A stretch of 64,000 nucleotides of DNA. Origin: Dichotomicrobium thermohalophilum (GTDB lineage Bacteria; Pseudomonadota; Alphaproteobacteria; Rhizobiales; Rhodomicrobiaceae). Numbering within the stretch: the first letter of the stretch is position 1; every line of letters starts with the position of its first letter. The notes beneath the pieces are model-generated. The model did not search any database. It saw only the letters and a program-made list of their open reading frames with translations, and was not told the DNA's origin. Position numbers and translations under genes: made by a program. Positions 44,382 through 46,555 of this stretch are shown one piece after another. The stretch is from contig NZ_QXDF01000003.1 in the NCBI RefSeq assembly GCF_003550175.1, forward strand, positions 62,001 through 126,000, in the 5' to 3' direction.

Positions 44382-45119
44382 TCACCGGCCGCCGGTGAGC
44401 GGAAGGGAATACCACAGGCGCATTGGCCAGTGCTCCTCTTCCGGGCTTTCCGGCGGCGATGGGGTCTTCGCGATGGTCGTCGTCTGCAGTGCACTGCCGG
44501 AGGGCGCGGCCGCCTTTTTCGGCTGCCCGAAAGGTCTTCGTGACGGCGCAGGCGGTATAACGGTCCGTGCAGTGGCGGATCCCGCCTGCTGAGGTTTCTT
44601 GTTCTCTGGGGTAGCGGCATCCGCCTTCGCCGTTACGGGCCTTATGGCGATATTGACGAAGCGCCAGCGCCCGCCGACGCGCTGATAGGTGAAATCGAAG
44701 GCGATGCGCCGGGGCTGCCCCGGGATGTAGCCCTTCAGGACGAGAAACTTGTTGCGGACGATGAGCGGCTTCTCCCGGAACTTCGGAAGGGCAAGGAGCG
44801 CGCGGCCAAGGTCTGCCTTCTGCTTGCGCAAGGGCGCGAAATAGTTGGCGAGGTCGAGAAGAGACATGGACGAGCGCAGCGACGGCGCGGCCAGATCGCG
44901 GAAGACCGCATAGTTGCCCGAAACATTCGCCTGATGAACCGCGGCGAAGGTTTCGCGGACGAGCCGGACGATGCGGCGCGCATCGGCGTCCGACCGTATA
45001 GCTGGCCTGCGCGCCTTTGCGTTTGCCTGCTGCTCTTGCGCGAAGGCGGGCGTCTCAGGCGTCAAAAACGCGTAAGACATGCAGACGAGCAGCGCCGCAA
45101 TGAAAGAACGAGATACCAT
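44382..45119 (-). CDS. Exported NTF2-like protein of unknown function
   Basis: A 245-residue protein with a signal peptide (MVSRSFIAALLVCMSYAF, cleavage near AFAQ). Residues 40-165 look like an NTF2-like cone fold: VNQAN-type segment VHQANVSGNYAVFRDLAAP, a core around FAPLRKQKADLG, and the strand pair IAFDFTYQRVGGRWRFVNIAI. The C-terminal 80 residues are rich in Pro, Ala and Lys and look disordered. ATG 45119 gives a good signal peptide; ATG 45161 does not. Its job is unknown. It is separated from gatC by 143 bases with no gene. Confidence 0.82.
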   Translation of the reverse strand: MVSRSFIAALLVCMSYAFLTPETPAFAQEQQANAKARRPAIRSDADARRIVRLVRETFAAVHQANVSGNYAVFRDLAAPSLRSSMSLLDLANYFAPLRKQKADLGRALLALPKFREKPLIVRNKFLVLKGYIPGQPRRIAFDFTYQRVGGRWRFVNIAIRPVTAKADAATPENKKPQQAGSATARTVIPPAPSRRPFGQPKKAAAPSGSALQTTTIAKTPSPPESPEEEHWPMRLWYSLPLTGGR

Positions 45120-45139
45120 CACAGGACCATAACAGCCGA

Positions 45140-45173
45140 GGAGAGCAAGAGGGGCCGCCACGGGGGCGGCCCC
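45140..45173 (-). terminator. Terminator of the adhesin gene
   Basis: On the minus strand the arms GGGGCCGCC and GGCGGCCCC pair perfectly over 9 bp with a 5-base loop, followed by TCTTGCTCT. It lies 26 bases after the adhesin stop. A matching hairpin is found at 46256-46291. Confidence 0.7.
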
Positions 45174-45198
45174 ATCCCTGGCAACACCCCGCTACCCG

Positions 45199-45900
45199 TT
45201 ACCAGGTGACTTGCGCGCCGACGCGGCCGCCGACAGTATCCTTGTCGAGACCGAAGCCGACGCCGCCAGCGATGGCGAGCCGGTCGCCACCGCCGAAGAG
45301 GTCATGTCCGAGGACGCCCGTCGCGGCGATGCCGAGCGCGTTGGAGCTTTCAAAGCCGCCCCAGTTGACGGACATGCCGAAGGTCTCGTTCCCGACGAGG
45401 TCCGGGTTCTGCAGGGCCAGCGCGATGGCCACGCCTTCCTGGTTTTCGTTGACCCGGTCACGGACGCCCGGAGACAGCTTGCCCCAGGTGACGGCGTCGT
45501 CGGCGATCTTGTCGGTGGTCACCGCGCCGTCCTGGATCGCGTCGGTGTCGACCGCGTTGTTTGCGAGCTCATTCGCTGTGACGGAATCGGTCCCGAGATC
45601 GTCGCTCGTGATCGTGCCGTCGGCGATTTCATTTGTTGTCACCGCATCCGTCTGGATGTCCCCGCTCGTGATCGAGTCCGTACAGTCGACTGCGACGTTG
45701 TCGCCATCCGGATTGGTTGTCGCATCCCTCAATTCACCGAAAGTCCCAACGGTTGTATCTGGATCATCCGACGTGTTGACAATCGCACATTGCGCCGCCG
45801 CTTCATTCGGCGTCGCGACCATCCCGACCCCGAGCGCCACCGCGCCAGCCGCTGCCAGCGCCATGGCCCTCTTGCTGCAAAGCCATTTGAATATTGTCAT
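45199..45900 (-). CDS. Small YadA-like trimeric autotransporter adhesin with decapeptide repeats
   Basis: A 233-residue surface protein. A signal peptide covers residues 1-37 (cleavage near EAAAQ). After a short segment with three cysteines (one at the cleavage junction, Cys38), residues 74-143 consist of seven 10-residue repeats of the form xDAVTTxEIA (for example TDAVTTNEIA, TDSVTANELA, DGAVTTDKIA), expected to form a trimeric beta/coiled stalk. Residues 149-233 resemble a YadA-like membrane anchor: NENQEGVAIALALQNPDL followed by four amphipathic strands ending in Trp. AGGAG 8 bases before ATG 45900 fixes the start. At 233 residues it is very small for the class; trimerisation is inferred, not shown. 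Confidence 0.78.
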   Translation of the reverse strand: MTIFKWLCSKRAMALAAAGAVALGVGMVATPNEAAAQCAIVNTSDDPDTTVGTFGELRDATTNPDGDNVAVDCTDSITSGDIQTDAVTTNEIADGTITSDDLGTDSVTANELANNAVDTDAIQDGAVTTDKIADDAVTWGKLSPGVRDRVNENQEGVAIALALQNPDLVGNETFGMSVNWGGFESSNALGIAATGVLGHDLFGGGDRLAIAGGVGFGLDKDTVGGRVGAQVTW

Positions 45901-46261
45901 CCTCACTTCTCCTGTTGTCCTGAACGCCTGTCAGGTGCGCCCGCATCAAGCACGGGCCAGTGAAAGGCGGGTTCAGGCTCCGCCCAGCCGGGCATTCGCC
46001 GAGTGGGCGAAGGGCGCCTGTCGCACCCGCATTGGTTGTGTTTTTATGAGAATGCTCGCTAAAAGGGAAGTGCAAAACGCCTGCAATCTGGGCGTGTAGG
46101 CGCCACACAAACTGATTAGGGGCGTTTTGGCGCGTATCGTGTTTTTCCTGCAACGCCGGACTGCCCGCGCCATCGGCTTCGCATTGATCACCGGTCTGCG
46201 CGCGCAACGATTGGCGGCGACCGCTGCCATCAGGCGACTCAACGCTGCTGCTCAGCAAAAA
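45901..46261. other. Upstream region of the adhesin gene
   Basis: The 361 bases contain no supported gene. They form the adhesin leader and promoter region. The segment 46057-46122 recurs in altered form at 46481-46550, which suggests that it carries the promoter or another conserved control element. Confidence 0.55.
46057..46122 (-). repeat. Upstream repeat, copy 1
   Basis: Minus-strand order: TAATC, TTTGTG, CTACAC, CC, AGATTG, CTTCCC, TTA, CG, each shared with copy 2 at 46481-46550 at matching distances. Both copies have TTGTG followed after 17-18 bases by ATTG, a possible weak promoter. Confidence 0.65.
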
Positions 46262-46291
46262 TGATAAAGGGGCCGCCGGAACGGCGACCCC
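46256..46291 (-). terminator. Terminator of the deleted adhesin copy
   Basis: On the minus strand GGGGTCGCC and GGCGGCCCC pair over 9 bp with one T-G wobble and a 5-base loop, then TTTATCATTTTT. The stem is kept despite a base change relative to the first copy, and the T-run is stronger. Confidence 0.75.
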
Positions 46292-46555
46292 TTCCCCCGG
46301 TAACACCCCGCTCGGAGTTGGTGGGATTCAACTCGGATCGAGGCGGCCGCCTTTTCGTGCTCCGGCCGAAGTCGAGAACCGCCGGCGAAAACGTAGCCCT
46401 CGACACATTGACCGAAAGCGCGACCGGAAGGGCAGTTCCGGCCCCGCAGCACCAGCGGCAGGTGTTGTTGTATAACGGATCGCGTAAAAAGGGAAGAAAA
46501 GAATTATTACAATCTAGGGGTGTAGTGCTCGCACAAATCGATTAGACGGCGAGCT
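46262..46555 (-). pseudogene. Deleted second copy of the adhesin locus
   Basis: This stretch repeats the outer parts of the adhesin locus in the same order and strand. The upstream repeat (46481-46550) is followed by about 170 bases, of which the end (AGGCGGCCGCCTCG near 46340) matches the last adhesin codons. Next come AGCGGGGTGTTACC (matching 45181-45193) and a terminator hairpin. Most coding sequence is missing and the 3' match is out of frame. It looks like a tandem duplicate that lost its centre. A short non-coding RNA between promoter and terminator is an alternative. Confidence 0.6.
46481..46550 (-). repeat. Upstream repeat, copy 2
   Basis: Counterpart of 46057-46122. It keeps the TAATC, TTTGTG, CTACAC, AGATTG and CTTCCC blocks but has become more AT-rich (TAATAATTC) in the middle. 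Confidence 0.65.

Follow-up and report, generated by a model that had tools for sequence, protein, structure and literature searches.

Tandem duplication in bacteria is known to leave intergenic pseudogene relics in which the ends of the duplicated unit are retained, the middle is deleted and a marginal coding remnant persists. In Bartonella henselae isolates, a badA pseudogene is found beside an intact trimeric autotransporter gene (PMC8859334). The Brt genes of Bartonella, which were seen by RNA-seq, are multicopy and precede genes of HTH regulators rather than badA, and Brt1 is a structured RNA of ~200 nt with a reported effect on a trimeric autotransporter gene (PMC5387305).

The locus described here lies in a 64-kb window (the whole stretch of DNA that was analysed, to whose positions all coordinates refer) and comprises an intact adhesin gene with its flanking blocks (copy 1), preceded on the same strand by a shortened second set of these blocks (copy 2). 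Copy 2 is probably what is left of an adhesin transcription unit that was duplicated in tandem and then lost about 690 bp.

Layout of the locus and its two repeated blocks

In minus-strand order, the locus starts with a metallo-hydrolase gene (47321-46632) transcribed towards the adhesin gene, followed by the promoter-side (control) block of copy 2 (46483-46548), the copy 2 interior (46316-46482; about 167 bp, in place of about 860 bp) and the copy 2 3'UTR block with its intrinsic terminator (46268-46315; 13-bp stem, 3-nt loop and T-rich tail). A spacer (46127-46262, examined by local comparison) leads from this terminator to the putative copy 1 operator. Then come the copy 1 control block upstream of the adhesin (46057-46122), a leader, the intact adhesin ORF (45199-45900; ATG at 45900, stop codon at 45199-45201), the copy 1 3'UTR block with a hairpin (45150-45196), the gene of an accessory secreted protein (44382-45119), gatC and gatA, all the elements from the hydrolase gene to the accessory gene being read on the minus strand. 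Between the control block and the 3' block there are about 862 bp in copy 1 vs about 169 bp in copy 2.

The recurrence of the upstream block, which had been proposed in a first-pass annotation of this DNA, was recovered as an ungapped alignment of 46057-46122 with 46483-46548 (offset 426), the local alignment on this side scoring 56 where 2000 dinucleotide shuffles reached 38 at most. On the 3' side, 45150-45196 and 46268-46315 form a direct repeat (offset 1118-1119 bp) whose alignment scored 68 against a shuffle maximum of 47 (2000 dinucleotide shuffles). Against a background of 400-bp pieces of the 64-kb window taken on both strands, the control block (81-bp query) and the 3'UTR-plus-hairpin block both scored 47, for background maxima of 30 and 31, respectively; within the window, the top match of each block outside itself was its partner block. 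Being a dyad, the control block gives a match with its own complement as well. The segment 45151-45193, which recurs near 46269-46312, had been described as the 3' end of the adhesin: the repeat itself stands, and the label was abandoned because the segment lies wholly downstream of the stop codon and consists of 3'UTR and hairpin. Order and strand of the blocks agree in both copies, and their proposed collinearity was thus retained.

Homology stops sharply at the block edges, with none found beyond the blocks in the outward directions, and the spacer is homologous neither to the accessory gene nor to the sequence upstream of copy 2. The spacer was also considered as an interspersed repeat after matches in same-family genomes, and this candidate was dropped, the matches being short, GC-rich and at differing offsets.

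Two unrelated promoter/terminator regions of a GC-rich genome could resemble each other by chance, and hairpins of this GC-rich kind are indeed met with in unrelated genomes, one distant genome having a match of ~32 nt at 94% identity. Such a coincidence, already disfavoured by the background scores, would have to account for two independent significant blocks with their order kept, neither of them matched elsewhere in the genome, and is considered as very improbable. The 24-nt 3'UTR motif AGCGGGGTGTTRCCNGGGNANGGG was found at two sites only, both in the 3' blocks (2.99-Mb genome, at most 3 mismatches), and no further copy of the control or 3'UTR motif was found elsewhere in the genome.

The adhesin, its accessory gene and the insertion site

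From a reading of its sequence, the adhesin has a signal-like N-terminus, a short stalk with ~10-residue repeats and a YadA-type C-terminal anchor. The stalk repeats are encoded by imperfect 30-bp tandem repeats (45488-45657, minus strand). Its final 78 residues can be aligned with the corresponding part of seven relatives, and PF03895 (YadA_anchor) is matched by 8/8 aligned family members (best E 9.9e-9); taken alone, this adhesin stays under the gathering score (E 0.016). The profile built from the eight sequences matched AtaA weakly (E 0.07). The C-terminal YadA-type membrane anchor of type Vc adhesins is recognised here via the family members, and these PF03895 matches, together with the weak AtaA match, indicate that the protein is an autotransporter of the YadA-anchor type, probably a trimeric one.

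The adhesin is single-copy in this genome. Among seven same-family genomes, six contain 1-5 dispersed copies, and in none of the seven is an adhesin found at this place or beside the hydrolase gene. For the accessory gene (44382-45119), no Pfam or NCBIfam match was obtained; a relative with about 25-38% identity lies just downstream of the adhesin in most same-family loci, in two tandem copies in some of them. It seems to be a hitherto undescribed accessory gene of the adhesin, and is likened by analogy to SadB or TpgA (PMC8151025). The number of adhesins in the six genomes and the tandem accessory copies indicate that local copy-number change is normal in this setting.

In other Hyphomicrobiales, among those compared, the gene order is ruvX, hydrolase, gatC and gatA, and the gap between hydrolase and gatC is often about 55-110 bp, vs about 2.2 kb here, where it is occupied by the adhesin cassette (44382-46550) including the accessory gene and copy 2. 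From this difference, the cassette is probably a lineage-specific insertion inside which the duplication would have occurred. In the stretches read of the same-family genomes, gatC is not kept beside the hydrolase gene. Plasmid records gave no match.

Control dyad, hairpins and interior of copy 2

Both control blocks contain a 33-bp dyad, AATC-N5-GTG-N9-CAC-N5-GATT, located at 46085-46117 in copy 1, where it is a putative operator, and at 46511-46543 in copy 2, with identical spacing and all consensus bases kept. Genome-wide motif matching gave two exact matches, 426 bp apart and both at these control blocks, with none in 20 relatives and two matches in 0/100 shuffles of the window; as the consensus was drawn up after both copies were known, these counts express the isolation of the pair and not the significance of the symmetry (10 and 8 of 16 position pairs complementary). 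The identities between the control blocks cluster in five runs of at least 6 bases (CTAATC, TTTGTG, CTACAC, AGATTG and CTTCCCTTTT), forming discrete 6- and 10-base islands (permutation P 0.0002, for a statistic picked post hoc), which suggests continued selection over free decay and, to that extent, weighs against a relic. The runs are read as the footprint of a shared regulator site, and the dyad most likely binds a dimeric regulator common to both copies. No match to a sigma-70-type promoter was obtained by consensus, so that the promoter itself is one that we infer.

Two further observations concern copy 1. Outer arms CAAAACGCC/GGCGTTTTG (46073-46129; 25-nt arms, 72% complementary), which are absent from copy 2, prolong its dyad, and the adhesin 5' leader (45910-46050, minus strand) folds better than shuffles (z -2.8), so that control may also be exerted at the level of the leader.

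Both terminator stems, described earlier as intact despite a base change, do fold (-25.3 and -24.2 kcal/mol across the two copies, the latter value being listed for copy 1), the copy 2 hairpin containing a U.G wobble. The T-run had been judged better in copy 2, and the terminator scan bore this out, detecting a usable T-run in copy 2 only. An intrinsic-terminator-like hairpin is present just after the adhesin stop in 6/11 related loci examined; the copy 1 hairpin occupies the same position as in related loci, but with a poor T-run. Located between the adhesin stop and the accessory gene in those loci and here, such a hairpin may set the adhesin-to-accessory ratio.

The dyads and hairpins could also be regulatory pieces only, with a two-site operator, whose distal site 426 bp upstream would act e.g. 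through DNA looping, and an insulating second hairpin. In such an arrangement, which is judged improbable, the control region of the adhesin would have copy 2 as its upstream half, and the copy 2 hairpin would block transcription from the hydrolase gene, roles that are held to be just as doubtful. The elements do lie on the same strand, between the adhesin promoter and a hydrolase gene whose transcription runs in the direction of the adhesin; the only two dyads of the genome are the ones found here at that distance, and the copy 2 terminator faces hydrolase readthrough. This arrangement alone would not account for two further shared elements, the CTTCCCTTTT island and, before the hairpin, the 3'UTR sequence AGCGGGGTGTTRCC.

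Within the adhesin unit, the top match of the copy 2 interior is the C-terminal coding segment, in the correct order (score 36, a value reached or exceeded by 6.8% of the background). Compared unanchored with the 64-kb window, this segment alone also scored 36, below the background maximum of 47. The extension anchored at the 3'UTR block into the coding sequence scored 21 (P 0.018, i.e. 1.8% of 4000 random placements); what may be a decayed piece of the C-terminal coding sequence lies at about 46338-46406, on the minus strand. From these two results, a coding remnant is considered as likely but weakly supported. No credible ORF was found in the interior: of two small ORFs on the minus strand, the 66-aa one (GTG start) was rejected because it reads across the terminator, and the 26-aa one (ATG start) for want of an evident ribosome-binding site.

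With both blocks significant, order and strand preserved, and a marginal coding remnant located where it should be between the blocks, a decayed second copy is the simplest account of this region, the flanking non-coding segments being homologous as they would be around a relic. The adhesin unit (operator/promoter, YadA-anchor adhesin and 3'UTR hairpin) would have been duplicated head to tail within the lineage-specific cassette, between the metallo-hydrolase gene and gatC. The upstream copy would then have lost about 690 bp net, with the 5' leader and the greater part of the coding region gone, and would have decayed, its control region and terminator being what survives. Against this account, the coding remnant is not significant alone, in contrast to the good conservation of the 3'UTR next to it. 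The decayed duplicate of the first-pass annotation is supported in part; neither an intact second gene nor a duplicate was detected among relatives, in the seven same-family genomes or in 397 sampled genomes of the order. As a relic, copy 2 would be ordinary in kind and would testify that adhesin units have been duplicated and lost locally in Rhodomicrobiaceae; the comparison of paralogues within the locus would still point to a 33-bp dyad operator probably controlling the adhesin. This dyad and the unnamed accessory gene are useful by-products of the analysis.

Copy 2 could, on the other hand, be a working small-RNA gene, a short RNA having also been raised in the first-pass annotation. It would be made of an operator, a structured RNA of ~200 nt and a strong terminator, would answer to the regulator of the adhesin and may co-regulate the adhesin. 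The identical spacing of the two dyads with all their consensus bases, the conserved islands of the control block and a terminator better than that of copy 1 all argue for it, and so does folding: 46262-46475, with the terminator hairpin, has a z of -3.2 and 46300-46475, without it, a z of -2.6, vs a lowest z of -2.33 among 92 background tiles. The inner stretch alone (46314-46440) reaches a z of only -0.7. An Rfam scan gave nothing near the gathering score, and in 397 sampled genomes of the order (own genome included) no homologue of the copy 2 unit that would show conserved sequence or covarying structure was found beyond short pieces. Antisense pairing to the adhesin start is absent, 96.7% of random segments pairing equally or better, and of the two signals expected of an autonomous RNA gene, its own promoter and an intrinsic terminator, only the terminator was found, the sigma-70-type match being absent. 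On balance, such a gene, with its predicted RNA (~200 nt, minus strand, ending near 46266), appears unlikely.

A small-RNA gene may be co-regulated with the adhesin and may have originated from an adhesin duplicate. In the combined form of these two proposals, which we regard as distinctly doubtful, a dead adhesin duplicate, with the regulator site of the adhesin retained and the better of the two terminators, would have turned into a small-RNA gene whose ~200-nt product, made whenever the adhesin is and sharing its 3'UTR sequence, would serve as a co-regulated RNA or as a sponge. If copy 2 is still transcribed, it would be a case in which the control region of a pseudogene outlives the gene and becomes an RNA gene.

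Comparison with known systems

The arrangement is alike to the badA pair of Bartonella henselae in that a degenerate copy (here a probable one) lies upstream of an intact gene in a member of the Hyphomicrobiales, and in that the intact copy is closely followed by another gene (PMC8859334). The badA pseudogene still spans about 5 kb with its domain order complete (PMC8859334), whereas here almost no coding sequence has survived, and what is left is mainly the control and terminator blocks.

The RNA predicted for copy 2 would share with the Brt RNAs of Bartonella a size of ~200 nt, a structured fold, a terminator-like 3' end and a tie to the control of a trimeric autotransporter (PMC5387305). 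Copy 2 differs from the Brt genes by the gene that follows it, which is the adhesin and not an HTH (Trp) gene, by being single-copy, by being known here from sequence alone and by its lack of an Rfam match, and the Brt RNAs are considered as a functional analogy only. Compared with the intergenic relics of bacteria, copy 2 is distinguished by operator-like islands that are better conserved than free decay predicts (post hoc test).
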